This document shows, piece after piece, positions 3,892 to 22,855 of a stretch of DNA of 31,584 nucleotides; within the stretch, counting starts at the first letter, position 1; the number at the start of each line of letters is the position of its first letter. The position numbers were made by a program, and so were the translations under genes. The notes below the pieces were generated by a model that was not told where the DNA came from, did no database searches, and saw only the letters and a program-made list of their open reading frames with translations. This DNA is from a virus: IMG/VR virus record IMGVR_UViG_3300033134_000381, positions 1 through 31,584 of that record. One strand, written 5' to 3'.

Positions 3892-5196
3892 ATGTCGGAC
3901 GACGCCCTCAGACGGCCCCTGCCCCCAAGCGTCTTCGCCCGCCTGGCCGAGGCGACGCGCTACGTGATCACCGGGGTCTCGCCGGAGACTTGGTTCGGGC
4001 CGCTGCAGCCGCTCGCGCCGATGGCGCCGCCCGAGGTCAAGGGGCGGCAGTTCGACTATCCGTTCGGCGCGAACCTCAATTACATTCCGCGCGCCGAGGA
4101 CGGCGTCTCGTTCGCCGAATTGCGCGGCCTCGCCGACGCGCTGCCGCTTCTGCGCGCCGTCATCGAGACCCGCAAGGACCAGATCGCCGGCCAGAACTAT
4201 GCGGTGCGGGCGCGGGCGCACGCCGACGCGCCGGACGCTTCGAAGAGCATCGATACGGTCACCCGTTTCCTCGCCCGCCCCGACCGGCGCCATTCGTTCG
4301 CCGATTGGCTGAGGATGGTGGTCGAGGAGATGCTGGTCATCGACGCGGCCACCATCTATCCGCGCTACGCCAGAGGCGGCGGGCTCTATTCGCTCGACAT
4401 CATCGACGGGGCGACGATCAAGCCGCTGATCGGCGAGGACGGGCGCGCGCCGGAGCCGCCCGACCCCGCCTATCAGCAGATCCTGAAAGGTGTGCCGGCC
4501 GCCGATTTCTCGGCCGAGGAGCTCATCTATCTGCCGCGCAACCTGCGCTCGCACCGGCTCTACGGGATGAGCCCGGTCGAGCAGATCGCGCTCACCGTCA
4601 ATATCGCGCTGAGGCGCGACGCGGCGACCCTCGACTATTACCGCTCCGGCTCCTCGCCGGACGCCTTCGCCACCTTGCCCAAGGAATGGACGGCCGACCA
4701 GATCCGCGCCTTCCAGGATTATTTCGACGCGCTGATGAGCGGCAACCTGGCGCGCCGGCGGATGACCAAGTTCATGCCCGCCGACTTCAAGCTGATCGAA
4801 ACCCGCCAGCCGCCGCTCAAGGACATGTACGACGAGTGGCTGGCGCGCATCATCTGCTACGCATTCTCGGTTCCCGCTTCGGCCTTCGTCAGCCAAGTCA
4901 ACCGGGCGACCAGCGAGACGCTTCGCCTGCAGGCGACGCAGGAAGGGCTTGTGCCGCTGAAGAGCTGGATCAAGAGCGCGCTCGACCATGTGATCTGCGT
5001 CTGCATGAACGAGCCCGGCCTCGAATTCGTCTGGGTAGGCGACGACGCGGTCGACCCGCTCCAGCAGGCCCAGACGCTCGAGATTCTGGTCGGGGCCGGC
5101 ATCAAGACGCGGGAAGAGGCGCGCGCCGACCTGGGGCTCGGGGCGGACAAGCCGCTCCCGTCGATCCGCGCCGGCCTCCCGGATTCCGGGCGTTAG
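3892..5196 (+). CDS. Phage portal protein (HK97-type family)
   Basis: The portal forms the dodecameric ring at one capsid vertex through which DNA enters and to which the neck binds. The 434-residue protein fits the size and pattern of phage portal proteins. It has an N-terminal region with a PFGANLNY stretch, then LPLLRAVIETRKDQIAG at about 85-101, where family members typically carry the V...I...K.QI pattern. A central fold follows with YLPRNLRS and YGMSPVEQI at about 213-230, then the clip and stem region. The C-terminal part has FSVPASAFVSQVNRATSE, a typical portal signature. It starts from an ATG with AAGGAA a few bases upstream. Its 3' end touches the putative LexA box. Confidence 0.9.
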   Translation: MSDDALRRPLPPSVFARLAEATRYVITGVSPETWFGPLQPLAPMAPPEVKGRQFDYPFGANLNYIPRAEDGVSFAELRGLADALPLLRAVIETRKDQIAGQNYAVRARAHADAPDASKSIDTVTRFLARPDRRHSFADWLRMVVEEMLVIDAATIYPRYARGGGLYSLDIIDGATIKPLIGEDGRAPEPPDPAYQQILKGVPAADFSAEELIYLPRNLRSHRLYGMSPVEQIALTVNIALRRDAATLDYYRSGSSPDAFATLPKEWTADQIRAFQDYFDALMSGNLARRRMTKFMPADFKLIETRQPPLKDMYDEWLARIICYAFSVPASAFVSQVNRATSETLRLQATQEGLVPLKSWIKSALDHVICVCMNEPGLEFVWVGDDAVDPLQQAQTLEILVGAGIKTREEARADLGLGADKPLPSIRAGLPDSGR

Positions 5197-5210
5197 AACA
5201 AAAAAAGAAC
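5196..5210. promoter_or_regulatory. Putative LexA (SOS) box, GAAC-N7-GAAC
   Basis: GAAC at 5196-5199 and GAAC at 5207-5210 are separated by exactly seven A residues. This is the direct-repeat GAAC-N7-GAAC (equivalently GTTC-N7-GTTC) recognised by alphaproteobacterial LexA. The site begins in the portal stop codon and lies six bases upstream of a -35-like TTGACT. Repression by host LexA and induction by DNA damage is inferred. Confidence 0.6.
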
Positions 5211-5216
5211 ATTTTC

Positions 5217-5246
5217 TTGACTGGCCTACTCCGCTCGTGGCATAGT
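5217..5246 (+). promoter_or_regulatory. Sigma70-like promoter before the protease gene
   Basis: TTGACT at 5217-5222 matches five of six -35 bases. CATAGT at 5241-5246 matches four of six -10 bases, after an 18-nt spacer. Transcription would start near 5253, giving a leader of about 120 nt to the protease ATG at 5376. The AT-rich block 5197-5220 stands out sharply from the GC-rich surroundings, which supports a real regulatory element. Confidence 0.6.
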
Positions 5247-5375
5247 TAGTTACAGTGGGGGAATGGCGCCGGCGGCGATGAGGCCGCTGGGGGCCTCTTC
5301 CACCTTCCCGATATCCTGCCTTCCGAGCCGCCCGCGTCCCGCCCGGGCGCGCGGCGCGTCTCTTCCGGAGCCTGC

Positions 5376-6512
5376 ATGTCCGCACTTGACCTCTTCCTGC
5401 CGCTCTTGAAGGTCGACCTCGATCGGCGCCTCGTCACTGGCGTCGCGACGGCGGAGACGCCCGACCGCGCGGGCGAGATTTTCGACTACGCGTCGAGCAA
5501 GCCCTATTTCGAGCAATGGTCGGCGGAGGCGCTTGCGGCGAGCGGCGGCAAGTCGTTCGGCGCCGTCCGCGCCATGCATGCGCCGATCGCCGCCGGCAAA
5601 TTGACCGACATCGCCTTCGACGACGACGGCAAGCGGATCACGGTCGCGGCGAAAATCGTCGACGACGACGAATGGCGCAAGGTCCAGGAGGGCGTCTACA
5701 CCGGCTTCAGCCAGGGCGGGCGCTACGTGAAGCGTTGGCCCGACCCGGACACCGGCCTTGTTCGCTACACCGCCGAGCCGTACGAGATCTCGCTGGTCGA
5801 TCTGCCCTGCGTGCCCGATGCGACGTTCGACGTCGTCAAGGACGGCGTGGCCGAGCAGCGCGCCTTCGCCCCGCGCCCCCTGCCCGACGCGGGAGACGCG
5901 ACGCCCGACGTCGCGAAGCGTGAGTTTTCGGCCGCGGAGCGTGAGAAGGACGCCGAAGCGGGCGTCGCCATGCCCGACGGCTCCTATCCGATCCGATCGG
6001 CCAAAGACATCGAGAACGCCGTGCGGGACTATTACCGCAGCGGCCAGAAGCCGGAGGTGAAGGCGCACATCATTGCGCGCGCGAAGGCCATCGGCGCCGA
6101 AGGCGCGCTGCCTGACGACTGGAAGGAAGCGGCCGACAAGGCCGCCCGTTCCTCCGTTCCGCCGAACCTCCGGAACGCCGCCCCCGAAGCCCTCGCCAAA
6201 GCGGCGGCCGCGCTCACCCAGGCGGCGCTCAAAGTCGAACGCGCGGCGGACGAGAACGCAAGCTTGCGCAAAGCGCTGGACGATCTCTCACCCAGGCTCG
6301 CCGATCTCACGAAGCGCATCGCAGCGCTTGAAGCCCAACCGCTGCCGGCCAAGGCGGCGCTGCGCCCCGTCGCCAAGACGGAGGACGGCGCCGATGAGGC
6401 TCTCATCAGCGCCGACGACGCGGTCAGACGCCTCGCGTCGCTGCCGGACCATCAGCGCGCCCTCGCGCTGACCAAGCTCAGCCTCGCCCATCCGATGCCG
6501 CAGCGCGTCTGA
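5376..6512 (+). CDS. Prohead protease (XkdF/S78-like) fused to helical scaffold-like tail
   Basis: The N-terminal ~160 residues resemble the XkdF-type phage serine protease family, which processes the prohead during capsid maturation. H68 in AMHAP and S112 in YTGFSQGG are candidate catalytic residues, and EISLVDLPCVPDATF at 137-151 is the characteristic later block. Residues about 198-250 form a separate small helical domain, with YPIRSAKDIENAVRDY and a following RAKAIGA. This pattern is often attached to such proteases and resembles DUF6582. Residues 270-325 look like a coiled coil that could act as an internal scaffold delta domain. At 378 residues it is longer than a bare protease. The ATG at 5376 has CCGGAG upstream, and the gene sits directly under the putative SOS promoter. 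Confidence 0.8.
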   Translation: MSALDLFLPLLKVDLDRRLVTGVATAETPDRAGEIFDYASSKPYFEQWSAEALAASGGKSFGAVRAMHAPIAAGKLTDIAFDDDGKRITVAAKIVDDDEWRKVQEGVYTGFSQGGRYVKRWPDPDTGLVRYTAEPYEISLVDLPCVPDATFDVVKDGVAEQRAFAPRPLPDAGDATPDVAKREFSAAEREKDAEAGVAMPDGSYPIRSAKDIENAVRDYYRSGQKPEVKAHIIARAKAIGAEGALPDDWKEAADKAARSSVPPNLRNAAPEALAKAAAALTQAALKVERAADENASLRKALDDLSPRLADLTKRIAALEAQPLPAKAALRPVAKTEDGADEALISADDAVRRLASLPDHQRALALTKLSLAHPMPQRV

Positions 6513-6818: not shown

Positions 6819-6926
6819 ATGGCGTTGAACTACCGCGCGCCCGCCCCATACGCCGCCTTCGTCACCCGCAACGGCGCCTTCCAGGCCGACGCCAATGCGC
6901 TCATCTCCAACACCCATCCACGCTAA
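6819..6926 (+). CDS. Very small protein before the capsid gene
   Basis: The 35-codon frame starts at an ATG with GGAGAG at 6805-6810, a well-spaced ribosome binding site. The product has the pattern FVTRNGAFQADANALIS, which resembles the start of small phage proteins with a G.(Y/F).AD.(N)G.I motif found beside capsid genes. It ends early with a stop, so it may be a truncated version of such a protein. It ends 28 bases before the capsid start. Confidence 0.4.
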   Translation: MALNYRAPAPYAAFVTRNGAFQADANALISNTHPR

Positions 6927-6954
6927 CTCCTACCTCCTCCAAAGGACTGATCCG

Positions 6955-8427
6955 ATGAATATTGCCCGGGCTACCCAAGAGACCTTTGGGTTGATGAAAG
7001 AATCGCTTGCCAAAACCATAACCGTCTCGACCGGTCTCACCGCCTATGACCTGCAGGCGCCGGCGAAAAATCTCTATCCGACGATCACGCCGCTCAGAAA
7101 TTCGCTGCCGCGCGTGGCGCGCCTCAACCCCGGCGATGCGGCCCGCTGGCGCTCGATCACCACGGTCACCGGGTCTGGCTTCGACGCGATGGGCTGGGTG
7201 CCGGAAGGCCAGCGCACGGCGAGCATGAGTTATCAGGCCGTCCTCAACGTGGCGCCCTATGTGACGCTTGGTGAGGAAGACACAGTGACCTTCGAAGCCG
7301 AGGCGGCGGCGCAGGGCTTTGAAGACGTCAACGCCACCGCCACTTTGCGCATCCTGCAGAAGACAATGCGCAAGGAGGAAACCGCCCTGCTCGGCGGCAA
7401 CACTTCACTGGCCCTGGGCACTCCCGGCTCGCCGACCTTGACCGCCTCGGGCACGGGCGCAACTCTGCCCTCCTCGACCTACTCGGTGATCGTCGCCGGC
7501 TTGACCTTTGAAGGCTACCGAAACTCGAGCCTCTCAGGCGGCGTCGCCACGACCAAGACCATCACTGGCAACGATGGCAACACTTACACATTGAACGGCG
7601 GCTCCTCGATGCGCAGCGCTAACGTCACGCAGGCAGTGACGCTTGGACAGACGCTGTTTGCGACCGCCCCCATCATCAACGCCGCCGTCGCCTATGCATG
7701 GTATGTTGGGCCTGCCGGCTCGGAGACGCTGCAGGCGATCACCACAATCAACAGCGCCGCTTTTAGCGCGCCACTTGCTTCCGGTCAGCAGGCGGCGAGC
7801 GTCATCACCGCGGACAACTCCCGCAACCAGACGCTTGCCTTCGACGGATTGCTGACGGACGGCTTCAACCCGGCGACCTCCTCGTTCGTACAGGCATTGT
7901 CGACCGGCACGGCGGGCACGGGCACGTTCCTGACACCCTCTGGCCGAGGCTCGATCGTCGAAATCGACAATATGCTGATGCAAATGTGGAACAGCTATCG
8001 GCTCTCGCCGACGGTGATCTACGTCAACGCCCAGGAGCAGAAGAACATCACGGCCAAGTGCCTGACCAACGCTTCTGGGCCGCTCGTTCGCTATAATGTC
8101 GACGCCTCCCAGTCGGCCCCTTATGAGTTCACTGCCTCCGGCGTCGTTCGCTGGTATTACAATCCGTTTACTGGCGTCGAGATCCCGATGCCAGTGCATC
8201 CCGACCTGCCGCCCGGCACAATCCTGGCTTACTGCGAGCGGCTGCCGGCATGGTATCAATCGAACGAAACGCCCAATGTCGCTGAGGTCCTAACCCGCCG
8301 CGACTACTATCGCGTCGATTGGCCTGTCCGCACCCGCCGTCGCGAATTCGGCGTCTACACTGAAGAAGTCTTGGCCATATACGCCTCATTCGGCATCGGC
8401 ATCCTCACCAATATCGGCAACGGCTGA
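6955..8427 (+). CDS. Major capsid protein (HK97-like fold)
   Basis: This is the main head shell protein, recognised by position directly after the protease and by its pattern. The N-terminal part has a TAYDLQAPAKNLYPTITPLR region, an arm followed by ITPLRNSLPRV, as in several phage capsid proteins. The C-terminal half has IVEIDNMLMQMWNSYRLSPT, ..IYVNAQEQKNI and PVHPDLPPGTILA, typical of a phage capsid A-domain. Residues about 160-285 are Ser/Thr/Gly-rich and beta-like, and look like an inserted extra domain exposed on the capsid surface. The 490-residue length is large for an HK97 shell protein, which fits such an insertion. The ATG at 6955 has AAAGGA at 6941-6946; an in-frame alternative start at 6895 would lie inside the preceding small frame. 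Confidence 0.85.
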   Translation: MNIARATQETFGLMKESLAKTITVSTGLTAYDLQAPAKNLYPTITPLRNSLPRVARLNPGDAARWRSITTVTGSGFDAMGWVPEGQRTASMSYQAVLNVAPYVTLGEEDTVTFEAEAAAQGFEDVNATATLRILQKTMRKEETALLGGNTSLALGTPGSPTLTASGTGATLPSSTYSVIVAGLTFEGYRNSSLSGGVATTKTITGNDGNTYTLNGGSSMRSANVTQAVTLGQTLFATAPIINAAVAYAWYVGPAGSETLQAITTINSAAFSAPLASGQQAASVITADNSRNQTLAFDGLLTDGFNPATSSFVQALSTGTAGTGTFLTPSGRGSIVEIDNMLMQMWNSYRLSPTVIYVNAQEQKNITAKCLTNASGPLVRYNVDASQSAPYEFTASGVVRWYYNPFTGVEIPMPVHPDLPPGTILAYCERLPAWYQSNETPNVAEVLTRRDYYRVDWPVRTRRREFGVYTEEVLAIYASFGIGILTNIGNG

Positions 8428-8512
8428 AGCACGGCCGCATCCTATGCGCCTGCCCAGCCTCGGCTGACCGGCGCGGTCATATCGCCCTTGGGCCCGTCTT
8501 TGCGAGCGCTTG

Positions 8513-9334
8513 ATGTCGCCATACGATCTGACCAATCTTGCGGCCTTGAAGGCCTGGCTCGGACTGCCCTCTGCCGCGGGGCCGAACGATATGACTCTGA
8601 CCGCGCTCATCACTGCGGCGAGCTGTTCGATCTACGCGGCGATTAGCCGTCCGAGCCTGCTGCCGCGGTCTTACGCCGAGACGATCGACCTCGAGACGCG
8701 GCGCGTCACCCTGAGACAGTGGCCGGTGACGCAGGTCGTGTCGGTGACATGGCGAGGAATTGCCGTGCCGCCCGACCAGAACGCCGATCTCGAGGCCTCG
8801 GTTGGCTACGCCCTCGAGCCGGGCGACGGCGTTCCGCCGGGCCGACCGCAGGCGCTCGACTTGTTTGGCCATCAATACCGGAAGGGCCGCCAAAGCCTCG
8901 TCGTGTCCTACAGCGCCGGATATGCAGTGCAAAACGAGCCGCAGGCGGTTCCCGCGGCCGCTCCGTTTCAGTTCGCCGCGTTCGCGCCTTATGGGCCCTG
9001 GGGCTCGGATCTCGGCGTGACTTACGCCGCATCCGGCGCTGCGCTGACCAGCGTTGCGGCCTCGCCCGGCGCCGGGCAATATTCAGTCAGCGGCGGCGCC
9101 TATGCATTTTCCGCCGCAGACGCCGGGCAATCGCTCTCGATTACTTACGGCTATGTCCCACAGGACATCGCCCAAGCGGCGCTCGAATTGGCGGCCGAGC
9201 GCTTTCGCGCCGCCGAGCGGATCGGGCTCAAGTCAAAGTCGATGGGCGGCCAGGAGACGATCGCCTACGACATGAGCGCCATGTCGGCGCCGGTCCTCGC
9301 AATGCTGCAGCCCTATAAGCGGGTCGCGCTGTGA
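8513..9334 (+). CDS. Head-tail connector protein with inserted beta module
   Basis: The family (gp6-like connector or adaptor) forms the ring under the portal that closes the head and binds the tail. The N-terminal helices (LTNLAALKAWLGLP, ...LTALITAASCSIYAAI) and the VVSYSAGYA and VPQDIAQAALELAAERFR blocks fit this family. In ordinary members the AGY block runs straight into the P.D...A helix; here about 75 residues separate them. Residues 166-218 of this insert carry the module shared with the tail tube and hub proteins. The ATG at 8513 is preferred over the adjoining TTG at 8510. The stop overlaps the next ATG by one base. Confidence 0.75.
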   Translation: MSPYDLTNLAALKAWLGLPSAAGPNDMTLTALITAASCSIYAAISRPSLLPRSYAETIDLETRRVTLRQWPVTQVVSVTWRGIAVPPDQNADLEASVGYALEPGDGVPPGRPQALDLFGHQYRKGRQSLVVSYSAGYAVQNEPQAVPAAAPFQFAAFAPYGPWGSDLGVTYAASGAALTSVAASPGAGQYSVSGGAYAFSAADAGQSLSITYGYVPQDIAQAALELAAERFRAAERIGLKSKSMGGQETIAYDMSAMSAPVLAMLQPYKRVAL

Positions 9335-9822
9335 TGTTCGCGCTCGAGCTCAATGGCCTCGAACAGGCGAACGCCCGGTTCGAGGCTTATCCGGCCGCAT
9401 TGACAGCCGCGCTCGACGCCAAGGCGGCCCAGCTCGCGGCGGCGCTCGTCGACCTCATCCAGAACGACAAGCTATCCGGCGGCTTGCTGAACACGCGCTC
9501 GGGGGCCTTGCGCGATTCGATCGCGGCCAGCATCTCGGCCGATGCGGACGGCTTCGTCGCTTCTGTCGGCTGCGACGGCGACGTGAAATATGCGGCGATC
9601 CAGGAATACGGGGGCAAGACGGGCGCGCATGAAATCCTGCCGGTCAAGGCTCGGGCGCTCGCCTTCGTCGTGGGCGGCTTCCAGCGCTTCGCCCGCAGGG
9701 TCGAGCATCCGGGTTCCCTGATCCGCGAGCGGTCCTACTTGCGCTCGTCGCTCGACGACATGCGTGACGAAATCCTAGACGCGCTGGCAGAAGCCGCGGC
9801 CGACGCATTGGAGCGCGCATGA
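9334..9822 (+). CDS. HK97 gp10-like neck/tail protein
   Basis: This 162-residue protein belongs, by pattern and position, to the HK97 gp10 / minor tail Z-like family that takes part in joining head and tail. Signs are an N-terminal helical stretch, GGLLNTRSGALRDSI at about 50-64 and KYAAIQEYGGKTGAHEI at about 87-103. The YA...EyG.. pattern is characteristic. The C-terminal region is a long helix. The ATG at 9334 is preferred over a GTG just upstream, since it overlaps the connector stop. Its own stop overlaps the next ATG (ATGA at 9819-9822). Confidence 0.8.
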   Translation: MFALELNGLEQANARFEAYPAALTAALDAKAAQLAAALVDLIQNDKLSGGLLNTRSGALRDSIAASISADADGFVASVGCDGDVKYAAIQEYGGKTGAHEILPVKARALAFVVGGFQRFARRVEHPGSLIRERSYLRSSLDDMRDEILDALAEAAADALERA

Positions 9823-10253
9823 CCCGTGAAGCGGCCTTCTCCGCCCTGTTCGTCGCCGTTTCCTCAGCCTATCCTTGGGGCCTCGCGTCGCGGCGGATGA
9901 AGCTCTGGAGCGAAGTTCCGGCGGCGCTGCGCCCTGCGCTTTTCCAGCTCGAAAGCGGGCCGGAGACCTATCAATGGGCGTCGCCTGCGACCCTGAAGCG
10001 AACGCTCGAGGTCAAGCTGTTCCTCTATTTCGACGCCCGCGATCCGACGACGCCGGGCGCGACCGCGATCAACAGCGCGCTTGACGCGATCGATGCGGCG
10101 CTCGCGCCCGCCGGCTCTGACATCGGCCTCGGCCGTCAGACCCTCGGCGCCGCTGTCTACGACTGCAAGATCATGGGCGTGCCGGTCCGCGACACGGGCG
10201 ATCTCGACGGCGACGGGCTGGCGGTGGTCGCGGTGCGGCTGATCGGGCCGTGA
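9819..10253 (+). CDS. Tail completion/terminator protein
   Basis: The 144-residue protein has the layout of tail terminator proteins, which cap the tail tube and join it to the neck: an N-terminal helix (REAAFSALFVAVSSA), RMKLWSEVP, then a beta-rich region with LEVKLFLYFDARDP at about 64-77 and a final VVAVRLIGP strand. Its place between the gp10-like protein and the tail tube gene is the usual one. It is coupled to the upstream gene by a 4-base overlap. The 107-nt gap after it contains no gene I can support. Confidence 0.7.
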   Translation: MTREAAFSALFVAVSSAYPWGLASRRMKLWSEVPAALRPALFQLESGPETYQWASPATLKRTLEVKLFLYFDARDPTTPGATAINSALDAIDAALAPAGSDIGLGRQTLGAAVYDCKIMGVPVRDTGDLDGDGLAVVAVRLIGP

Positions 10254-10360
10254 GGCCGTCCGATTTCTCGTCCAGCTGAGCGGTCCAATGGAAACGCTTC
10301 CCGTCTCGCTGCTGGCGGCGATGCGATCCTCATAGCAATCCCCAACGGAGTTCACCCCTC

Positions 10361-11110
10361 ATGTTCGTATTCGGCTCGGGCGTGCTGACCGGCACGCAAT
10401 TGAATGTCGCGCCCCCAACCCCGATCAATTTCGGGCTGGTCCAGAAGGTCAGCGTCGACACGTCGGTCAGCGTCAAGGAACTCTACGGCCAATATGCGTT
10501 CCCGGTCGCCGTCGGATCCGGCACGCGCAAGGTGCAGTGCAAGGCTTCGCTCGCGCGTTTCAGCGGGCAGGCTCTCGGGCGCCTTTTCTACAATCAGGCG
10601 CCGAGCTCGGGCTCGACGATCTCCCAGTTCGCCGAGGTGCACGGCGTCCCCGCCTCCTCCCCCTATACCGTCACCGTGACCAACGCGACGCACTTCGTGG
10701 CTGACCAGGGCGTCGTTTACGCCTCGACCGGCCTGCCTCTCATCGCCGTCGCAACGGTTTCCGCCGCCGGTCAGTACAGCGTCAATGCAGCCACCGGCGT
10801 CTATACATTCTATTCGGGCGACTCGACGGCCAACGTCCTGATCTCCTACACCTACACGAACAGCTCGCAGGGCGAGTCTCTCGCCATCGCCAACCCGCTG
10901 ATCGGGCCGACGTCAACCTTCACCGCGACGCTGTTCGCGACCGACCCGACGACGAACGCGCAATTCTCGGTGACCCTCAACCAGTGCGTCGCCAGCAAGT
11001 TCTCGTTCGACACCAACATCGAGGACTTCTCCAAGCCGGACTTCGAGTTCCAGGCGTTCGCCAACGCCGCAGGTCAGGTCATGACCTTCAACTTCGGAGA
11101 CGCGGCGTGA
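10361..11110 (+). CDS. Major tail tube protein with inserted beta module
   Basis: The 249-residue protein is in the tail tube position, after the completion protein and before the chaperones. It is beta-rich, starting with GSGVLTGTQLNVAPPTPINF and a later VSVKELYGQYAFPVAV, and its C-terminal part (FSVTLNQCVASKFSFDTN...) fits phage tail tube proteins of this type. Residues about 109-170 contain the module shared with the connector and the hub (VVYASTG, AGQYSV, GVYTF, ISYTY), which would probably stick out from the tube surface. The stop overlaps the next gene's GTG start (GTGA at 11107-11110). Confidence 0.8.
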   Translation: MFVFGSGVLTGTQLNVAPPTPINFGLVQKVSVDTSVSVKELYGQYAFPVAVGSGTRKVQCKASLARFSGQALGRLFYNQAPSSGSTISQFAEVHGVPASSPYTVTVTNATHFVADQGVVYASTGLPLIAVATVSAAGQYSVNAATGVYTFYSGDSTANVLISYTYTNSSQGESLAIANPLIGPTSTFTATLFATDPTTNAQFSVTLNQCVASKFSFDTNIEDFSKPDFEFQAFANAAGQVMTFNFGDAA

Positions 11111-11754: not shown

Positions 11755-13065
11755 ATGGCCGACGCCAATGTCTCCGTCAGCTTCAGCGCTTCGATCGACG
11801 ATTTCGTCTCCCAAGTCGGCGAGGCGAAGGACGCTTTACAAACCTTCTCGGCGCCGTTCGGCGACATCAACCGACAACTGGCCTCGCTCGGGGCCGCCAC
11901 GTCCCAGGCCTTCAGCGCTGATCGTCTTGAGCCATATCGCGACGCTCTCACCGCAACCCAATCGCTCCAGCGGTCATTCGCCGCCGACAGCGCACGCGCC
12001 GCCGCGGCGCTGCGCGCCGGCGACGACGAGGCGTATTCCGACGCGATGAGGGCGGCGCAGCTCGCGACCTCGGAAGAATTGAGGATCCTGGCTGACGCGA
12101 CGAAGCAGAAGCTCACCCTCTATGCGGAGGAGGCGCGCTCCTACGAGATCACCCAGCAGCAGAAACTCGCGCTTTCGCAAACCGCGCTCGACCAGGAATA
12201 CGCTGCCGAACTCGCCGCATTGCAGCGCCGCGAGGCGCTCGGCGACCAGTCGCTGGCGGCCGCGCAGCGCGTCAACGACATGATCATCGAAGCGACGCGC
12301 CGCCGCGACGATGAGATGGCGGCGTTAACTCGCTCGTCTCTGCAGGAACAGGAGCGCGACTACCAGTCGTTCGCCAATTCGACCTTGCAGGCGTTCAACT
12401 CCCAATTGCGCGGACTGCTCTCGGGGACGGAGAACTGGCATGCGGCGTTCAAGAGTGTGCTCGACGACTTGCTGATCAAATTCATCGAGTGGTGCGAGAC
12501 CACGGTCGAGCATTACATCCTGGCGGAAGCGATGAAGACAGCAGCGACCAGCGCGGGCGTCGCGGCGCGAACGAGCGCGGAGGACGCTGGGGCGGCAGCT
12601 TCGATGGGCGCCCAAGGCGCAGCGATGATCCGATCTATCCTCTCTTCCGCAGCGGAAACTTTTGCCGGCGTGTTCGGTTTTCTCTCGCCGCTCCTGGGTC
12701 CGTTCGCAGCCGGCCCGGCCGCCGCGGCCCAAGCCACGGTCGCCGGCATGGCCGGCGCCGTCGTTTCTGCCGATATCGGCATGTGGCAGGCGCCACAAGA
12801 CATGCTGACCCTGATCCATCACAACGAACTCATCATGCCGCAGGCGGAGGCCGGCGCATTTCGGTCGCTTCTCACAGCGTCGGCGAACGGCGGTTCGCCC
12901 GGCGCATCGGTCGCCATTCATCCGACCACCAATTTCAATGTGTCCGCGCTCGACGGCGCGTCGGTCTCGTCCTGGATGCGTAGCAATGGCCCCGGTATGG
13001 CGAAGGCGCTTGACGAAGCCGTGCGCCACGGAGCCGCGCTCGGATTGAAGCGCCTACGCGGCTGA
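11755..13065 (+). CDS. Tail tape measure-like protein
   Basis: Located right after the chaperones, this 436-residue protein should set tail length and be released on infection. The N-terminal half is a long, largely uninterrupted helix (about 15-230), with many Ala, Gln and Glu. Around 265-350 there is an Ala/Gly-rich hydrophobic region (FAGVFGFLSPLLGPFAAGPA and after) that could act at the membrane. The C-terminal part has IHHNELIMPQAEAGAF and ends in a helical tail, as in tape measure-like minor tail proteins. At 436 residues it would specify a short siphovirus tail. The ATG at 11755 has AAGG at about 11740. Confidence 0.7.
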   Translation: MADANVSVSFSASIDDFVSQVGEAKDALQTFSAPFGDINRQLASLGAATSQAFSADRLEPYRDALTATQSLQRSFAADSARAAAALRAGDDEAYSDAMRAAQLATSEELRILADATKQKLTLYAEEARSYEITQQQKLALSQTALDQEYAAELAALQRREALGDQSLAAAQRVNDMIIEATRRRDDEMAALTRSSLQEQERDYQSFANSTLQAFNSQLRGLLSGTENWHAAFKSVLDDLLIKFIEWCETTVEHYILAEAMKTAATSAGVAARTSAEDAGAAASMGAQGAAMIRSILSSAAETFAGVFGFLSPLLGPFAAGPAAAAQATVAGMAGAVVSADIGMWQAPQDMLTLIHHNELIMPQAEAGAFRSLLTASANGGSPGASVAIHPTTNFNVSALDGASVSSWMRSNGPGMAKALDEAVRHGAALGLKRLRG

Positions 13066-15602
13066 TGGCGTCCGTCAATCTCATCGGCGTGCACCTGTTG
13101 CCGTCGACAGGCGAATTCGCCTACGACGTCTATCCCGCGGTCGGGGCGCAGCGCGGGCCGAGCGGGCTCGACAACCTCTCGGTCCAGAACTACTTCTCCA
13201 ACCCGAGCCTGGCGGGAAATGTCACCGATTACACCAATTCGATCGAGCAACTTCAGGCGCAGCATCCCGAGTGCATGTCGGTTTCAGTGGTCGTCGCGTG
13301 GTTTTTCGATTCGGAAGACGCCTCGACCTGTCAGATCTATCCATCGACCAATTTCATCCTCGGCGAGTTTCAACAGAACTCCGGCGCCGGGTTCACGCCC
13401 GTGCATTGGATGGTGTCGAGCCTAACCGAGCAGACCTACCCTGGCCTCATTCCGATCCCCGAAATTCCCAATGCTCTCGGAACTCCAGGCTTCGTTTACG
13501 GCGGCACGCCGTCCGACCCCAGCGTCGTGCGCTGCATCCGCGATCTGAAGGCGCGCGGTTTCAAGGTCGTCTTCTATCCGTTCCTGCTTGGAACGGGACC
13601 AGGCTTTCCCTGGCGTGGCCGCATCACCTCGCCGAACGACCTCTCCCAATTGGCGACCAATGACATCAATACGTTCATGGGCGGCGCGGCGGTCGGAGAT
13701 TTCACATCCGACGTTAGCGCGCTGACAGTCGCCTATTCAGGAAACCCGTTCGATTACACCTATCGGCGGATGATCCTTCACTACGCCAACCTGGTGACAG
13801 TCGCCGGCGGCGTCAACCTATTCGTCATCGGTTCGGAATTGCGCGGGCTCGAGATCCTGCGCGGGCCTGGCTGGACTCAGGCGGGAACCACGGACGGGTC
13901 GGGCAATGCGATCTGGGACTATCCGATGGTTGCCGCGCTCAACACGCTGGCGAACGATGTGCGCTCGACCTTCGACGCCGCTGGCTACGCGAAAGACGAG
14001 ACGACCTTCGCGAATCTCATCACCTACTCGGCCGACTGGTCGAGCTGGATGGGGTGGCAGCATCCGGGCGAGAACGGGCAATGGCCGCATCTCGATCAGT
14101 TGCGCGCCAACCCGAACATTGATTTCGTCAGCTTCGACAATTACCTGCCGCTGACCGACTGGACGACCGCGGGCAACGGCGGCCTCGACGGCGACGAATG
14201 GCTGACGCCGATCTATTCCGGCGCATGGCCACCACCTTCGGGATCGCTCAGCGGTCTCGGTCTCAGCGGTCCGCCCACAATCTACTCGATGCCCTATCTC
14301 AAGCTCGGGATCGAGGGCGGCGAGTATTTCAACTGGTACTACAACGATGGCGTGGCCGGCGCCCACGCGGCCTACGGCCTCGACCCGAACGGCTCTGATC
14401 TTCAAGTGACGCTGCCCGCCGGTGATCGTCTGGCGCAGGCGCGCAACCCATATTATCCCAATCAGCAGATCCTCGCCCCGAAGCAGCTACGTTGGTGGTG
14501 GAACAATCTCCATTACGCGGTCTATGCGACGGCAGAGAGCGGCGGCGCCTGGGTACCGACAGGCCCGCAGACGCAATGGGTTCCGAATTCGAAATCGATC
14601 ATCACGCTCGAACACGGCTTTGCTGCTTGCGACAAGGCGACGAACCAGCCGAACGTGTTTTACGACCCCAAAAGCACGGAGAGCGCGACGGCCTTCTGGT
14701 CGATCTGGGATCCGGCGAACAATCTCGGTTATCTGCCGCGGCGCGACGACACGATCCAGGCGATGGCTCTGGAGGCGGTCTACGAATATTGGAACGTCGA
14801 CGGCAATAACACGGTCGTCGGCGGCCTGCCGATGTTCAACTGGATGTTCTGTTGCGTCTGGAATTGGGACGCGCGGCCGTTCCCCACCTTCCCTGACCTC
14901 AACTCGGCGTGGGGCGATACCGGAAATTGGCAACAAGGCTTCTGGACCAATGGCATCAGGGACATGCTGCCGCCGCCCGCGCCGAGCCCACCGCCGTCGC
15001 CGGGGAGTTTCGCCACCTTTCCACCCCTGGCGACCCTCGGCTGGTCGACGCACGTCAAGCCGAAATTCTCGACGCTGATTGCGGGGCACGTTTCCGGGCG
15101 CGAGACACGGACGCAACGGTTTGCCAATCCCTACTTTGATATCGAATTGACCTACGAGGTTTTGCATTCCGATCTGGGCTATGCCGAGCTCCAATCGATC
15201 GCCGGCTTCTTTGAGGAAGCAAGCGGAGAGGATGCACCGTTCTGGGTCGCGCCGCCTGGCCTCAACGGGGCCACGGGCCAATCAATAGGGACAGGCGACA
15301 GTTCGACCACGACATTTCCGCTGGTCGCCTCGATCGGCGGCTATTCCGGGTTCGTCTATGGGACATCGGGCGTGGGCGCCGTCTATCTCAATGGCGTCGC
15401 GCAGGCCAGCGGCTGGACTGTCAGCGCGGGTTTCCTGCCGGCGATCACGTTCACGACGGCACCCCAATCGGGCGTCGTGATCACCGCGGACTTTGGAATT
15501 TTATGGCTCTGCCGGTTCGCCGACGACGTCCAGGACTTCGAGGAATTCATGTCGATGCTGTTCGAATTCCGAACCCTACGGCTTATGACGACCCGGCCGT
15601 GA
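13065..15602 (+). CDS. GTA_TIM glycosidase-like barrel fused to DUF2460
   Basis: Residues 1-630 match the TIM-barrel-like domain (GTA_TIM) normally found at the N-terminus of the GTA host-specificity protein. Blocks include VVVAWF near 75, GGTPSDPSVV near 147, LFVIGSELRGL near 253-263, IDFVSFDNYLPLTDW near 352, CDKATNQPNVFYDPKSTES near 522-540 and VWNWDARPFPTFP near 599. E258 and E516 stand where a clan-A glycosidase would have acid/base and nucleophile, so glycan cleavage is plausible but unproven. A Pro-rich linker (about 633-647) leads to residues 648-845, a complete DUF2460 domain similar to the next gene product. The ATG overlaps the tape measure stop by one base. It probably sits at the tail tip. 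Confidence 0.85.
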   Translation: MASVNLIGVHLLPSTGEFAYDVYPAVGAQRGPSGLDNLSVQNYFSNPSLAGNVTDYTNSIEQLQAQHPECMSVSVVVAWFFDSEDASTCQIYPSTNFILGEFQQNSGAGFTPVHWMVSSLTEQTYPGLIPIPEIPNALGTPGFVYGGTPSDPSVVRCIRDLKARGFKVVFYPFLLGTGPGFPWRGRITSPNDLSQLATNDINTFMGGAAVGDFTSDVSALTVAYSGNPFDYTYRRMILHYANLVTVAGGVNLFVIGSELRGLEILRGPGWTQAGTTDGSGNAIWDYPMVAALNTLANDVRSTFDAAGYAKDETTFANLITYSADWSSWMGWQHPGENGQWPHLDQLRANPNIDFVSFDNYLPLTDWTTAGNGGLDGDEWLTPIYSGAWPPPSGSLSGLGLSGPPTIYSMPYLKLGIEGGEYFNWYYNDGVAGAHAAYGLDPNGSDLQVTLPAGDRLAQARNPYYPNQQILAPKQLRWWWNNLHYAVYATAESGGAWVPTGPQTQWVPNSKSIITLEHGFAACDKATNQPNVFYDPKSTESATAFWSIWDPANNLGYLPRRDDTIQAMALEAVYEYWNVDGNNTVVGGLPMFNWMFCCVWNWDARPFPTFPDLNSAWGDTGNWQQGFWTNGIRDMLPPPAPSPPPSPGSFATFPPLATLGWSTHVKPKFSTLIAGHVSGRETRTQRFANPYFDIELTYEVLHSDLGYAELQSIAGFFEEASGEDAPFWVAPPGLNGATGQSIGTGDSSTTTFPLVASIGGYSGFVYGTSGVGAVYLNGVAQASGWTVSAGFLPAITFTTAPQSGVVITADFGILWLCRFADDVQDFEEFMSMLFEFRTLRLMTTRP

Positions 15603-15603
15603 A

Positions 15604-16221
15604 ATGACCGCGCCGCCGTCCTTTCCCACGCTCTCCGGTCTGGGCTGGAGTGTGCACAAAAAACCCGTCTTCTCGACCATTGTCGCAGGACACGTCTCCG
15701 GTCGCGAGGTTCGCCACGCGCTCTATCAGAACCCGATCTGGCAGTTCGAATTGGCCTTCGACGGCCTCGACTCGACGGCCGACACCTATCCGGGCCTGGG
15801 TCCAAATTCACTCCAGGCGCTGACGGGCTTCTTTCTTGACTGCCAGGGGCAATTTGGCACGTTCCTCTATGTCGATCCGACCGATTCCTCCGCGACCGGC
15901 GCCACCTTTGCAACCGGCGACGGGACGACTGAGAGTTTCACTTTCTCCCGTTACATGGGCGCATTTCTCGAGCCGGTGGGCTGGGTGACGAGTGTTTCGA
16001 ATGTCTACTTGAACGGCGTCAACCAGGCGTCGGGATGGTCGCTCTCTACTCCAAACAGCCTCGTGTTTACCTCTCCTCCAGGGTCCGGAGTCTCGATTGC
16101 GGCGACATTCGCCTATGCCTTCCAATGCCGGTTTGATTCCGACGACATGGATTTCGAGCAGTTCATGTCGGCTCTTTGGAAGGTGGACAGCCTCAAGTTT
16201 AAATCGGTGAGGACATCGTGA
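15604..16221 (+). CDS. DUF2460 tail tip protein
   Basis: This 205-residue protein belongs to the DUF2460 family, equivalent to GTA gp12, a distal tail component. Recognisable blocks are FPTLSGLGWSVHKKPVFST and IVAGHVSGREVRHALY near the start, GFFLDCQGQFGTFLYVDP, then ATGDGTTESFTF, VYLNGVNQASGWSL and YAFQCRFDSDDMDFEQFMSA. Each block has a counterpart in the C-terminal 200 residues of the preceding gene product, so the two are tandem paralogues. The gene starts two bases after the previous stop, and its stop overlaps the next start. Confidence 0.85.
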   Translation: MTAPPSFPTLSGLGWSVHKKPVFSTIVAGHVSGREVRHALYQNPIWQFELAFDGLDSTADTYPGLGPNSLQALTGFFLDCQGQFGTFLYVDPTDSSATGATFATGDGTTESFTFSRYMGAFLEPVGWVTSVSNVYLNGVNQASGWSLSTPNSLVFTSPPGSGVSIAATFAYAFQCRFDSDDMDFEQFMSALWKVDSLKFKSVRTS

Positions 16222-16412
16222 TGGGCGCACTCGTTGGAATGTGGATTTCGGCGTCGCTCGTTCCGCTCGCAATGCTGCGGTCGTTCCTGGGTGGCGTGCG
16301 CCACGAGCTGCGCGAGTACGCACGGGACGAACGCCGCTTTACGTGGTGCGACACTGAAGAGGAGATCGAACGGTTTCAGACGCGCCTGGCGGAGCTTCGC
16401 CGCCGATGCTGA
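16221..16412 (+). CDS. Small membrane protein in the tail-tip operon
   Basis: The 63-residue protein has an N-terminal hydrophobic segment (MGALVGMWISASLVPLAML) and a charged helical C-terminal half ending in an EEEIERFQTRLAELRR coiled-coil-like stretch. The ATG at 16221 has GTGAGGA at 16207-16213; a GTG one codon earlier is less well spaced. It overlaps the DUF2460 stop and itself overlaps the next frame by 7 bases. The family is not recognised. Membrane anchoring is a prediction from hydrophobicity only. Confidence 0.6.
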   Translation: MGALVGMWISASLVPLAMLRSFLGGVRHELREYARDERRFTWCDTEEEIERFQTRLAELRRRC

Positions 16413-16537
16413 TTGCTGGCGCTGTCCGGAACTTGTTCTCGCGTCTCGCAACTGGCTTTGCGGCTGCGCGTTCGTTCCCTCGCCAAGACGCGCCGCGGCC
16501 CTGTCACCCATTTTGGGATAGCGGCTCGCGCCCATGA
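16406..16537 (+). CDS. Tiny coupled reading frame between DUF2460 and DUF2163
   Basis: The 43-codon frame starts with an ATG at 16406, inside the end of the previous gene (overlap 7 bases), and its stop overlaps the DUF2163 start in an ATGA arrangement. Its product is a short Ala/Arg-rich helix (AVRNLFSRLATGFAAARS) followed by a Pro-rich end. The tight overlaps on both sides favour real translation, at least as a coupling device that carries ribosomes to the next gene. No function can be given. Confidence 0.45.
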   Translation: MLIAGAVRNLFSRLATGFAAARSFPRQDAPRPCHPFWDSGSRP

Positions 16538-17403
16538 AGGCGACCACGACCGCCGTTCAAAGCCTTCTCGCCGCGTCAATGGCGGCGCCGGATGCGCCGA
16601 TCGCCTTCGCCGAGTGCTTTACCTTCCTCACGACGACGGGCGTCCAATACACTTGGACGAACGTCGACTATGACGTCGTCTACAACGGCTTCACATTCTC
16701 AGCGTCCGGTCCGCTGGTCTCGGGCCTGAAATACAAGGGGTCAGTCGGTCTTGAAGTTGACAAGCAGCAGATAACGATTGCGGCGCGGCCGACCGACTCG
16801 ATCAACACCGCTCCTTTCCTAGTTGCGCTCCGCGACGGCGCGTTCGACGGCGCGCCCGTCTACCGCGACCGGGTTTTCCTTTCCGCGCCCAACGGAAGCG
16901 TTGTCGGCGGGGTTCGAATGTTCCAGGGACGGGTCTCTACTGTCGACAGCGTGGGCCGCACTCAGGCAACTTTGACCGTCGCCAGCGATCTCGTGATCCT
17001 CGATTACGACATGCCGAGGAACCTGTTTTCGCCGACCTGCCTGCACACGCTCTATGACGCGGGCTGCGGCGTCATCCGCGGCACGTATAGCGTCAACGGG
17101 ACGGCCGAGGCCGGATCGACCTCGAACCTGATCCTGACGTCCGTCGCCCAGGTTGGCCACGCCCAGGGCTCGCTCGTTTGGACGTCGGGCGCCAACGCCA
17201 ACGTGCGCTCGACGGTCAAAAGCGTCACCGCCGGCTCGGCGCTCAACCTCATGTACCCGTTGCCGTTCGCGCCGGCTACTGGCGACGCGTTCACCGTTGC
17301 GTTTGGCTGCGACCACACGCAGGCGACCTGTCAGAGCAAGTTCAACAACCTCGCGAATTTCCGCGGCTTTCCATATGTGCCGCCGCCACAGCTTGCCTAT
17401 TGA
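16534..17403 (+). CDS. DUF2163/BR0599-family tail tip protein
   Basis: This 289-residue protein is equivalent to GTA gp13, part of the distal tail. The N-terminal ~170 residues fit DUF2163, with FTFLTTTGVQYTWTN and the SVGLEVDKQQITIA block followed by DGAFDGAPVYRDRVF. The C-terminal third has the Phage_BR0599-type signature GCDHTQATCQSKFNNLANFR followed by GFP, with paired cysteines, close to the end. The middle has two further cysteines (CLHTLYDAGCGVIRG). Length is normal for the family. The ATG overlaps the upstream stop by 4 bases. In GTAs this gene comes directly before the NlpC/P60 peptidase; here one 54-residue gene lies between them. Confidence 0.9.
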   Translation: MKATTTAVQSLLAASMAAPDAPIAFAECFTFLTTTGVQYTWTNVDYDVVYNGFTFSASGPLVSGLKYKGSVGLEVDKQQITIAARPTDSINTAPFLVALRDGAFDGAPVYRDRVFLSAPNGSVVGGVRMFQGRVSTVDSVGRTQATLTVASDLVILDYDMPRNLFSPTCLHTLYDAGCGVIRGTYSVNGTAEAGSTSNLILTSVAQVGHAQGSLVWTSGANANVRSTVKSVTAGSALNLMYPLPFAPATGDAFTVAFGCDHTQATCQSKFNNLANFRGFPYVPPPQLAY

Positions 17404-17414
17404 GGAATTAATTC

Positions 17415-17579
17415 ATGACGCCCGAACAGGCCGAGAAGATCATCAGGCTCCTTGAAGCGATCGACGCGAAGCTTGGGGCGCCTTCGAATCTGGCCTTTCG
17501 TCCGAATCCGACCTTCGATAACGCAGCGCCCACGCCGGCACCGGGCTATACGTTCACGATGGTCGTCGGCGCTCCTTGA
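17415..17579 (+). CDS. Small protein between DUF2163 and NlpC/P60
   Basis: The 54-residue frame starts at an ATG with GAGGAAT at 17403-17409, a good ribosome binding site. The N-terminal 22 residues form an amphipathic helix (PEQAEKIIRLLEAIDAKLG); the rest is Pro/Asn-rich and ends in a short strand (YTFTMVVGAP). The stop overlaps the TTG start of the peptidase gene, so translation of that gene probably depends on it. The family is not recognised. Confidence 0.6.
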   Translation: MTPEQAEKIIRLLEAIDAKLGAPSNLAFRPNPTFDNAAPTPAPGYTFTMVVGAP

Positions 17580-18028
17580 TCAGCGAGACTGAGGCGCGGC
17601 GCGCGGTCGTCGCCTCCGCGCGGTCGTGGCTCGGGACGCCCTACCATCATGCGGCGGATGTGAAGGGCCGAAATGGCGGCGTCGACTGCGCCATGCTGCT
17701 GGTGCGTGTCTATTGCGACCTTGGCCTAGTCACGCCTTTCGATCCGCGCCCCTACACCCGGGACTGGTTTTTGCATCGCAACGAGGAACGCTATCTCGGC
17801 TTCCTTCTCGCGCGATCGCACGAGGTTCGCTCTCCGAGGGAGGGGGACATCGTTCTTTTCCGGATCGGGCGCTGCTACGGTCACGGCGGGGTTGTCTCGC
17901 GTGCAGAACCGCTGGCGGTTGTGCACGCCTTCGCCAACGCACGCTGCGTCGTCGAGGACGTGATCGAGCGCAACGCGGAGTTGAGCGCTCGGCTCAAGAC
18001 GGCGAAATTCGCAAGCTATTGGGAATAA
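17576..18028 (+). CDS. NlpC/P60-family tail peptidase
   Basis: The 150-residue protein is equivalent to the GTA gp14 / phage cell-wall peptidase, which opens peptidoglycan during DNA entry. C38 in NGGVDCAMLL is the candidate nucleophile, H103 in YGHGG the base, and H117 (VVHAFA) a possible third residue. WLGTPYHHAADVKG before the cysteine and REGDIVLFRIG before the histidine are standard NlpC/P60 blocks. The frame begins at a TTG that overlaps the upstream stop (TTGA), which implies coupled translation; no in-frame ATG gives a complete domain. Genes for the tip proteins lie on both sides, as in GTAs. Confidence 0.9.
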   Translation: MISETEARRAVVASARSWLGTPYHHAADVKGRNGGVDCAMLLVRVYCDLGLVTPFDPRPYTRDWFLHRNEERYLGFLLARSHEVRSPREGDIVLFRIGRCYGHGGVVSRAEPLAVVHAFANARCVVEDVIERNAELSARLKTAKFASYWE

Positions 18029-18031
18029 GCC

Positions 18032-18142
18032 ATGTTTTCGAGCAGCGACTCTGACAGCACACGCCAGTCGATTGTCACTGTCGACGTCGTCGTTGTGGTT
18101 GCGCTCGTTGTCCTCGGCGTCCTTATGGGGCGTGCTGTCTAG
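18032..18142 (+). CDS. 36-residue single-span membrane protein
   Basis: The frame starts at an ATG 3 bases after the peptidase stop and ends 2 bases before the hub gene. The product has a polar Ser/Asp-rich N-terminus (about 14 residues), one strongly hydrophobic segment (VDVVVVVALVVLGVLMG) and a short basic tail, so it is a likely membrane micro-protein with the N-terminus outside or inside undetermined. The tight spacing on both sides supports translation. A role in lysis or in DNA passage through the membrane is conceivable, but nothing shows it. Confidence 0.5.
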   Translation: MFSSSDSDSTRQSIVTVDVVVVVALVVLGVLMGRAV

Positions 18143-18144
18143 TT

Positions 18145-20689: not shown

Positions 20690-21544
20690 TTGAGCGAGCA
20701 ACTCCAACTTCGCCGCGGCACGTCAGCGCAGGTCGCCGCCTTCACTGGGGCGCAGGGCGAGACAGTGATGGATACGACCAACAATCGACTGGTCGTCAAC
20801 GATGGCGCGACCGCCGGCGGCTGGCCGGTCGCCAAACTCGCCGAGGTCGTCACCAACGGGCGCACGGCGGTATCGGACGCGGCCTATACGGCGCTCGAGA
20901 CTGATCGCATGATCGCCTACACGGCGCTGACCGCCGCCCGCGTTGTCAGCCTCCCCGCTGCCTCCGCCTATCCGACCGGCACTCGGCTGATTGTGGTCGA
21001 TGAGACGGGCAATTGCTCGGTGACCAACACTCTCACCATCGCGCCAAACGCCACGGACGCGATCGACGGCGCAGCATCCGCAGTCCTTAATGTCGCTTAT
21101 GGTTATATCGGCATCGAGAGCAACGGGGCCGGCGCCTGGACGGTCACCGATCAGGGCTTCATGCCGGCGCTCGCGTTCGTCGCCGCCGCGGCGCATGGCG
21201 CCAGTGTCCAGATCGGTATCCTCGAGACGCTCGTTACACTTTCGGGCGCGTCGACCAGCGGTAGCGTGCAAATCCCCGCCAACTGCATCGTGCTCGCTGT
21301 CGGCGCGCGGGTTGTGACCGCCATCTCCGGCGCGACATCCTATGAAGTCGGGGTGTCTGGGAATCTCTCGCAATTTGGCTCGGGCCTCGCGATTGCGACC
21401 GGTTCGACTAATTACGGCCTTATCGGCCCGACCGCTTTCTATTCACCGACGACGCTGACAATCACCGCAACTGGCGGCAGCTTCAGCGGTGGCCAGGTCA
21501 GACTGTCGATCGCATACATGCTGGCCAATCCGTCGGCGGCCTAA
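20690..21544 (+). CDS. Tail fibre/adhesin with Mtd_N-like N-terminus
   Basis: Residues 1-48 (LQLRRGTSAQVAAFTGAQGE, MDTTNNRLVVNDGATAGGWP) match the small N-terminal domain that attaches many phage tropism determinants and fibres to the tail. The rest of the 284 residues is beta-rich, Ala/Gly/Ser/Thr-rich and ends in VRLSIAYMLANP, compatible with a receptor-binding or trimer-forming region. It starts at a TTG at 20690 with GAAGGAT a few bases upstream; an ATG at 20673 in another frame makes only six codons. No reverse transcriptase or variable repeat is seen nearby, so tropism switching is not suggested. Confidence 0.7.
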   Translation: MSEQLQLRRGTSAQVAAFTGAQGETVMDTTNNRLVVNDGATAGGWPVAKLAEVVTNGRTAVSDAAYTALETDRMIAYTALTAARVVSLPAASAYPTGTRLIVVDETGNCSVTNTLTIAPNATDAIDGAASAVLNVAYGYIGIESNGAGAWTVTDQGFMPALAFVAAAAHGASVQIGILETLVTLSGASTSGSVQIPANCIVLAVGARVVTAISGATSYEVGVSGNLSQFGSGLAIATGSTNYGLIGPTAFYSPTTLTITATGGSFSGGQVRLSIAYMLANPSAA

Positions 21545-21575: not shown

Positions 21576-22829
21576 ATGAATCGTATAATTCTCGCCGCGC
21601 TGCTGGCGGCTGGCGTCGCCGTGCCCGCGCACGCGCAAACCTATCAGGATTCCGGCGGCACGGTTGTTCCGGGAGTCGTGCCGATCCAGCCAGGCGTCGG
21701 GCCGCTGTTTACTTCGGCCAATCCCGGCAAGATATCCGGCTCGTTTTCGGCCTCCCTGACCGGCTTTCAGCCGACACCATCCTATGCGTCGCTTTCAGTT
21801 GGCGCGACGTCCAACCGTGTTGCGTTGCCGAGCGGAACCGTCGTCGTCGTCTACAATACTGGCGCGAACGCAGCTTATGTGACCATTGGCGGCCCCAGCG
21901 TCACGGCGACCACATCCGACGATTTCGTGCCTGCTGGCGGCTGGATGGCCTTCTCAGTTGGCTCCAGCACGTACTTGGCTGGAATCGAGACCGCTGGCGC
22001 GAGCACACTGAACCTTTCAGGCGGCTCAGGCCTGCCCACCGGAGCCTGCTGCTCCACCAGCGGCGGCAGTGGGTCGAATGCCTCGGTCGGCGCGACCGGA
22101 GCTGCAGTTCCCTCATCCGCGACGCTCGGCGGCATGAGTGTCGGCGGCACGATGACGGCGCTGCTTGGAACGTCAAATGGCCTCAAGGTCGACGGCTCCG
22201 CGGTCACGCAGGCCGTCTCCGCCGCGAGCCTGCCGCTGCCATCGGGCGCGGCGACGGCTGCCAATCAAACCTCCTGGCAGGGAGCAACCGGGAGCTCGGT
22301 CCCGACTAATGCGGCGCTCGTCGGCGGCAACCTCGGTGGCGTTCTGACGGCGCTGCCGATGACCTCGAATGGCCTCAAGGTCGACGCTTCGGCTGTCACG
22401 CTCAATGTCGCCCATCCGACCGTCGGCTCCAGTGGATCGTCGGTCCCAAGCAGCGCAAGCTACGTTGGCGCGAACAGCGGGGGCAACCTCGTCGGGATCA
22501 TTCAGGCGAACGCCTCGGTTCCGATCAACATCTCGACGGCCACAACGACCCAGCTCGTACCGGCATCCGGATCGACCAAAATCTACGTAACTTCCTATGG
22601 TCTGCTTGCGGCGGGAACCGGCAACCTCACGTTTGAATATGGAACGGGATCAAACTGCGGGACGGGGACGACGGCGCTGACCGGCGCCTTCAATCTGACA
22701 GCGCAGGCGGGCGTTACGCAGGGCAGCGGCCTCGGCCCGATCCTCGTCGTGCCGGCCGGCGACGCGCTTTGCGTCCTGACCACCGCCGCGGTGCAGATGA
22801 GCGGCAGCGTCGCCTTTACCCAGTTCTGA
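21576..22829 (+). CDS. Repeat-containing adhesin with a signal peptide
   Basis: The 417-residue protein begins with a clear Sec signal peptide (MNRIILAALLAAGVAVPAHA, likely cut before Q21). The mature part is beta-rich. Two tandem units of about 60 residues between 170 and 290 each contain a VP..A...GG...TAL...SNGLKVD.SAVT pattern, followed by a diverged third. The C-terminal ~105 residues form a compact domain with NLTFEYGTGSNCGTGTTALT and a final CVLTTAAVQMSGSVAFTQF, with two cysteines. I take the ATG at 21576 because it gives the signal peptide; the frame is open further upstream. Its position suggests a fibre, but the signal peptide would send it to the periplasm or surface. Confidence 0.7.
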   Translation: MNRIILAALLAAGVAVPAHAQTYQDSGGTVVPGVVPIQPGVGPLFTSANPGKISGSFSASLTGFQPTPSYASLSVGATSNRVALPSGTVVVVYNTGANAAYVTIGGPSVTATTSDDFVPAGGWMAFSVGSSTYLAGIETAGASTLNLSGGSGLPTGACCSTSGGSGSNASVGATGAAVPSSATLGGMSVGGTMTALLGTSNGLKVDGSAVTQAVSAASLPLPSGAATAANQTSWQGATGSSVPTNAALVGGNLGGVLTALPMTSNGLKVDASAVTLNVAHPTVGSSGSSVPSSASYVGANSGGNLVGIIQANASVPINISTATTTQLVPASGSTKIYVTSYGLLAAGTGNLTFEYGTGSNCGTGTTALTGAFNLTAQAGVTQGSGLGPILVVPAGDALCVLTTAAVQMSGSVAFTQF

Positions 22830-22855
22830 ACGCAATGGACGGCTGGCAGAACCTC

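Follow-up and report, generated by a model that had tools for sequence, protein, structure and literature searches.

The segment at 5196–5246 of the window, a stretch of 31,584 nucleotides (positions 1 to 31,584 of IMG/VR record IMGVR_UViG_3300033134_000381), is likely an SOS-controlled promoter. Judged from sequence comparisons, it would belong to a prophage-derived cluster resembling a gene transfer agent (GTA) and would be wired directly into the SOS regulon of the host. The host SOS system thereby probably switches on particle production without a phage repressor.

LexA-type box and promoter elements

The LexA-type box GAACAAAAAAAGAAC (5196–5210) has the form GAAC-N7-GAAC, and its first G coincides with the final base of the portal stop codon. 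The -35 hexamer TTGACT (5217–5222), preceded by a C (CTTGAC), starts after a distance of 6 bases and is separated by a spacer of 18 bases from the -10 hexamer CATAGT (5241–5246), which was located by a promoter scan and the upstream alignment and reads GGCATAGT in relatives. The spacer holds the element TACTCCG (5227–5233; TTAC(G/T)CCG in relatives), and the alignment also revealed a conserved start region, ACAGTGG (5252–5258; ACANTGG in relatives). All these elements lie on the + strand. The transcription start is predicted near 5253, which places the box at about -57 to -43. The box and the promoter had been pointed out by the initial annotation as parts of an AT-rich island, and both were recovered at the same positions; the GC content was 0.56–0.57 at the box and promoter vs 0.65–0.73 in the surroundings.

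The promoter scan returned 2 promoter-like matches in 20 kb, TTGACT/CATAGT among them, with a chance expectation of 2.3. GAAC-N7-GAAC occurred three times in the window, the expected number being 1.08, and at least three copies were found in 12% of the shuffles. The motif count alone is thus within chance, and the significance of the box at 5196–5210 comes from its conservation. The other two copies, at 19534 and 30917, were rejected as further operators, both being inside ORFs and consistent with chance. The possibility that the 5' leader forms a conserved RNA hairpin was also rejected, as the RNAalifold consensus paired no bases. The DNA search of phage and plasmid collections with the intergenic stretch resulted in short chance-like matches only.

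Conservation in related loci

Relatives were gathered from IMG/VR and GTDB genomes by portal and protease searches. The box followed by CTTG(A/C)C, a TTACGCCG-like spacer, a -10 (mostly GGCATAGT) and the start region was present in 37 distinct sequences, the window included, so the recurrence of the box at this position, which had been proposed as a check, was observed. In these sequences the box preceded the protease start by about 180 bases (range about 170–210). Where the protease was 73% identical or more, most relatives carried the box with an A-rich spacer.

The per-column conservation was determined with 45 upstream regions picked irrespective of the box. The columns of the GAAC half-sites were 78–89% identical (1.1–1.5 bits), the last three N7 columns were 47–53% conserved (0.3–0.4 bits), and upstream of the box the conservation fell sharply to a mean of 0.33 bits. 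Conserved half-sites with a variable N7 end are the alignment signature of an operator with two half-sites. The TTGAC of the -35 was 76–93% conserved, and the TTACGCCG element, with 1.1–1.7 bits per column, was as conserved as the -35.

In a tree of 81 proteases, all the box-bearing rows fell within one clade of 49 rows with 6 label changes, which is consistent with a single gain and several losses of the box. The tree slightly overstates the losses, since L142, whose gap between the box and the -35 is one base longer, was counted as lacking the box. A more distant contig (L155, 47% identical), which is below the cut-off of the protease tree, also carries the box. The protease promoter is without the box in several lineages, the cultured R. 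fermentans among them; of the isolates, both R. fermentans and Methylocapsa sp. S129 lack it there. The operator is accordingly conserved in orthologous position, as in a LexA regulon, and was lost in some lineages.

When 2.9 million viral contigs were scanned, the complete string of box and promoter was matched in 19, each of which had already been recovered as a portal or protease relative. Among 149 genomes of the family, the strict pattern was found only in G007 because the cluster is absent from most of them. Of 9 host genomes, 4 contained the strict core of the protease-type promoter, each in one copy, and 5 lacked it. The idea of a host promoter that had been captured or repeated was rejected, as the core occurred at most once per host genome; capture is also disfavoured by the full string being confined, among the viral contigs, to those of this cluster.

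The motif in the host SOS regulon

Nine host genomes were reached via the loci. GAAC-N7-GAAC was located just upstream of lexA in 9/9 genomes and also preceded recA in each of the five genomes with readable upstream sequence; in two genomes ssb had such a box as well. The assignment of the repeat to host LexA, made earlier from the motif known in alphaproteobacteria, is therefore supported by the hosts' own genes. The recA box of the host is GAACAAAAAAAGAAC, a 15-mer identical to the box of the window. The pattern AGAACAWAWNNNGAACW resulted in 37 matches in the 9 host genomes and the reversed control in 0. According to promoter elements identified by eye, the lexA box is placed between the -35 and the -10, and the recA box abuts the -35 from upstream. 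The boxes hence have the marks of a LexA regulon: an operator adjoining the promoter, and the same motif at lexA and recA of the same hosts.

The LexA consensus of Caulobacter is GTTCN7GTTC (PMC12700426). The motif, its orientation and the exact recA box are all the same here as in the alphaproteobacterial LexA/SOS regulon (GAACN7GAAC / GTTCN7GTTC), whereas the target is a capsid and tail operon instead of a repair gene.

Sister promoters and a putative second regulator

Most lineages have a promoter at terS that shares the core of the protease promoter (CTTGC..CGCCG..GGCATAGT), and in L004/L146, L006, L010 and G001, which include the closest kin of the window, it also carries a LexA box. In two clade-B genomes the megatron gene, too, is preceded by a promoter of this class, the third one. 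The megatron promoter of G006 (contig C217) has an additional LexA-type box, AGAACAAAACAAGAACA, downstream of its predicted start (L349:1586-1602); this box is missing in the sister genome G007.

The TTACGCCG/CGCCG element between the -35 and the -10 is common to the protease promoter and the terS promoters of L084, L083, L164, L167, L170, L171 and L174 and is shared also with the clade-B tail promoter. It is a putative site of a second regulator or a promoter determinant. In L080 and L150, which lack the LexA box, a CAGAAA/TTTCTG-type motif takes its place (L080:317, L150:5368) and the promoter core is retained; the same motif type is present at the megatron promoters L348:1994(-) and L349:1512. 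The replacement is possibly an exchange of operators.

Given that the conservation of the TTACGCCG element equals that of the -35 and that the box is swapped in some lineages, LexA is unlikely to be the sole input. The protease promoter is not the sole control point either, because terS and terL have their own sister promoter. The initial interpretation is supported in part.

Gene content and chromosomal setting

The genes from terL to the tail module are on the + strand. The left edge holds terS (about 1–230), the promoter of which is outside the window, and the terminase large subunit gene terL (228–1628). The portal gene (3892–5196) is directly upstream of the box, and the first gene after the promoter encodes the head maturation protease (5376–6512; PHROG head maturation protease, phrog_21715). 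The probable major capsid protein (6895–8427; phrog_13692, function unannotated there) was assigned from its position and conservation. Head-tail adaptor, neck and tail genes (8510–11110; ORFs 8510, 9331, 9819 and 10361), syntenic in relatives, are followed by an RcGTA-type tail module (11755–20676; match to RcGTA 6tba, E 4e-61) with a tape measure, a megatron TIM-barrel half with DUF2460, a second DUF2460, a hub, an NlpC/P60 peptidase and a megatron C-terminal half. The dN/dS values of the protease and the probable capsid were 0.16–0.26 and 0.06–0.11, respectively; within this range of 0.06–0.26 the structural genes are under purifying selection.

Further features of the cluster were recorded. 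In the split megatron (13065–15602, 15604–16221, 18145–20676), the TIM-barrel half is fused to DUF2460 and followed by the second DUF2460 gene, and the C-terminal half is separate. An Mtd_N (major tropism determinant-like) protein is encoded at 20690–21544. It is followed by an ORF of 2380 aa (22769–29911), which is fast-diverging (35–44% where its neighbours have 70–80%). Extra portal copies, mostly 5'-truncated and many of them ending near residue 416–420, with small cargo genes between them, are present in many relatives (L002/L154, L004/L146, L007, L009, L010, L011, L014, L164, L279), and R. fermentans has at least 6. The gap between the portal and protease genes seems to be a hotspot at which cargo arrives together with a portal fragment. 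In R. fermentans, genes of a LuxR-type autoinducer-binding regulator and an ABC transporter are inserted just before the protease (L079:7724-9799), and the LexA box is absent there.

TerL was matched in 9 of the 11 genomes of the soil genus holding Roseiarcus fermentans, being broken in one genome and distant in another. The breakage in G005, where TerL is in pieces (C75:4054-5165; L326, L338), suggests that the cluster is decaying there. Across the family at large the capsid match was patchy and mostly 38–46% identical. Host DNA was detected directly upstream of terS, in three conserved groups of sites. The left neighbour is dapD in 7 loci (R. fermentans, four other genomes and two viral contigs). 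In two MAGs the host core sequence atpG-atpD-atpC with a gene of the xanthine dehydrogenase family (xdh) lies left of terS, and xdh and/or the neighbouring orf317 were found in five more contigs, resulting in 7 loci in all. In 2 loci, those of L010 and genome G001, the closest kin of the window, the gene to the left is a multicopper oxidase. The 13 viral records of the cluster that were searched, which are fragments, yielded no integrase, and neither did the R. fermentans cluster contig C7.

The presence in 9/11 genomes, the conserved chromosomal sites, the RcGTA-type tail module and the purifying selection make the cluster resemble a gene transfer agent. Like a GTA, it occupies fixed chromosomal positions and is inherited vertically in the host clade, and its structural genes are kept by selection. 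The cluster is thus probably an integrase-less, chromosomally fixed, genus-wide GTA-like element and not an ordinary mobile prophage, a setting which the initial annotation had missed in treating it as a prophage.

Repressors and the SOS route

The SOS induction of phage particles usually proceeds through a phage repressor or antirepressor. The sole Peptidase_S24 protein found in four host genomes was LexA, and no Peptidase_S24 protein was detected in the 13 viral records of the cluster, which are fragments; a direct, repressor-less circuit is therefore plausible. No CI-type S24 repressor was found with the Roseiarcus clusters in the MAGs, isolate drafts and viral records, of which the MAGs and viral records are incomplete. 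A repressor combining HTH and Peptidase_S24, as expected of a temperate prophage, was thus not found in the four host genomes and is present in the Rhodoblastus-type relatives. The earlier claim that no intermediate phage regulator takes part is plausible as regards a CI-like repressor; a second regulator is probable in view of the TTACGCCG element and the swapped motif.

The Rhodoblastus-type prophages (L085, L087, L091, L092, L106, L109, L180), whose terL, protease and capsid are homologous to those of the window, carry a conserved GAACATAA-N3-GAAC box in front of the gene for a CI-like repressor (HTH + S24), some 1.5 kb before terL. Their order was observed to be: LexA box, ATGGGAA..TTCCCAT-like inverted repeat, CI-like HTH+S24 gene and terS; the arrangement is at L106:3305, L091:678, L109:4351, L085:278, L180:567, L092:3019 and L087:4318. 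In these prophages the box is at the repressor gene upstream of terS, which is the usual indirect SOS route, whereas in the Roseiarcus clusters it is on the promoter of the structural genes. As the Rhodoblastus relatives have the box on a repressor gene and no such gene was found with the Roseiarcus clusters, the comparison supports a shortened circuit in the latter, in which LexA would act straight on the structural genes.

The same Rhodoblastus-type arrangement, along with the classification of the contigs as viral by IMG/VR, the fragmentary records and the broken TerL of G005, would also fit real LexA control of an ordinary or decaying temperate prophage, whose repressor and integrase are outside the sampled contigs and where LexA adds to a phage repressor. 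This is unlikely in the light of the host genes directly upstream of terS at all three groups of sites, the lack of matches to an integrase or to an S24 protein besides LexA in the records searched, the TerL distribution in the genus and the purifying selection on the structural genes.

Proposed mechanism

In the GTA-like cluster, host LexA would bind GAAC-N7-GAAC upstream of CTTGAC/CATAGT and repress the protease, capsid and tail genes. Upon DNA damage, the RecA-stimulated self-cleavage of LexA would free the promoter, and the packaging genes would be expressed from the sister terS promoter, which is LexA-boxed in the window's closest kin. A second factor would probably act through the conserved TTACGCCG element. 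The cluster would have been kept vertically in Roseiarcus-type Hyphomicrobiales, the integrase and the CI-type repressor having apparently been lost. A wider proposal, possible but tentative, is that this is a new genus-wide Roseiarcus GTA, in which the particle genes are LexA-repressed at the paired terS and protease promoters, DNA damage triggers the production and the ancestral LexA-to-repressor relay has been shortened.

Repression is the likeliest effect of LexA and is not certain, because the box of the window ends 6 bases before the -35 and is farther upstream than the boxes of recA and lexA. Due to this distance, the repression may be weak or LexA may act otherwise. LexA of Rhodobacter sphaeroides has a dual role, and activators frequently bind in the region before the -35 where the box is located (about -57 to -43); a class-I-like activation of the promoter instead of repression is still quite improbable, since in these hosts recA, which is a canonical SOS-induced gene, has its box immediately upstream of the -35 in a similar geometry, and the flanking contacts of LexA would extend to the -35. 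It is very improbable that the GAAC repeat is incidental, with the conserved unit being a promoter for another regulator (TTACGCCG or CAGAAA) and the A-rich stretch an UP element: the chance-level motif count and the CAGAAA-type replacement with an intact promoter core would agree with this, but both half-sites are conserved, in contrast to the variable N7 end, the box is identical to the host recA box, and the terS promoter of the closest kin is boxed too.

Comparison with known systems

With direct repression by LexA as the preferred reading, the cluster can be compared with known GTAs and LexA-controlled phages. The GTAs of Rhodobacter capsulatus (RcGTA) and Dinoroseobacter shibae are integrase-less, vertically inherited head-tail clusters with homologous tail proteins, and the present cluster, with no integrase found in the records searched, resembles them. 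The portal and capsid had no PDB match by sequence, RcGTA included. The megatron is split and under the cut-off of GTA_megatron (NF048004), and none reaches it in seven genomes, so the cluster is not a canonical RcGTA. Instead of the full-length megatron and the RcGTA-like portal and capsid of that family, it shares only the homologous tail. Unlike in these two GTAs, LexA boxes are conserved here right on the promoters of the structural genes. The production of RcGTA needs LexA, apparently via CckA, by an unknown mechanism (PMC9638019), and a LexA site has been reported in silico for the D. shibae GTA cluster (PMC6473078). No paper pairing "gene transfer agent" with "Roseiarcus" was found in the literature collection searched. 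The arrangement described here offers a simple link from DNA damage to the production of GTA-like particles, which is still unclear mechanistically in R. capsulatus (PMC9638019), and the comparison with Rhodoblastus suggests how the host rewiring of a domesticated prophage can happen.

Direct LexA control of phage propagation genes is described as rare in the paper on the Bacillus thuringiensis phage GIL01 (PMC4551915), which cites CTX and SaPI operon I as cases of direct control by host LexA; to judge by the box, dozens of lineages of the present cluster keep such control. In GIL01, the CTX prophage and SaPI operon I, phage or satellite genes are under direct repression by host LexA, as is proposed for the present cluster. 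These systems are mobile, reside in unrelated hosts and have cofactors or repressors of their own, whereas the Roseiarcus cluster is chromosomally fixed, with no repressor found, and would be controlled by LexA of the host directly at its structural genes.
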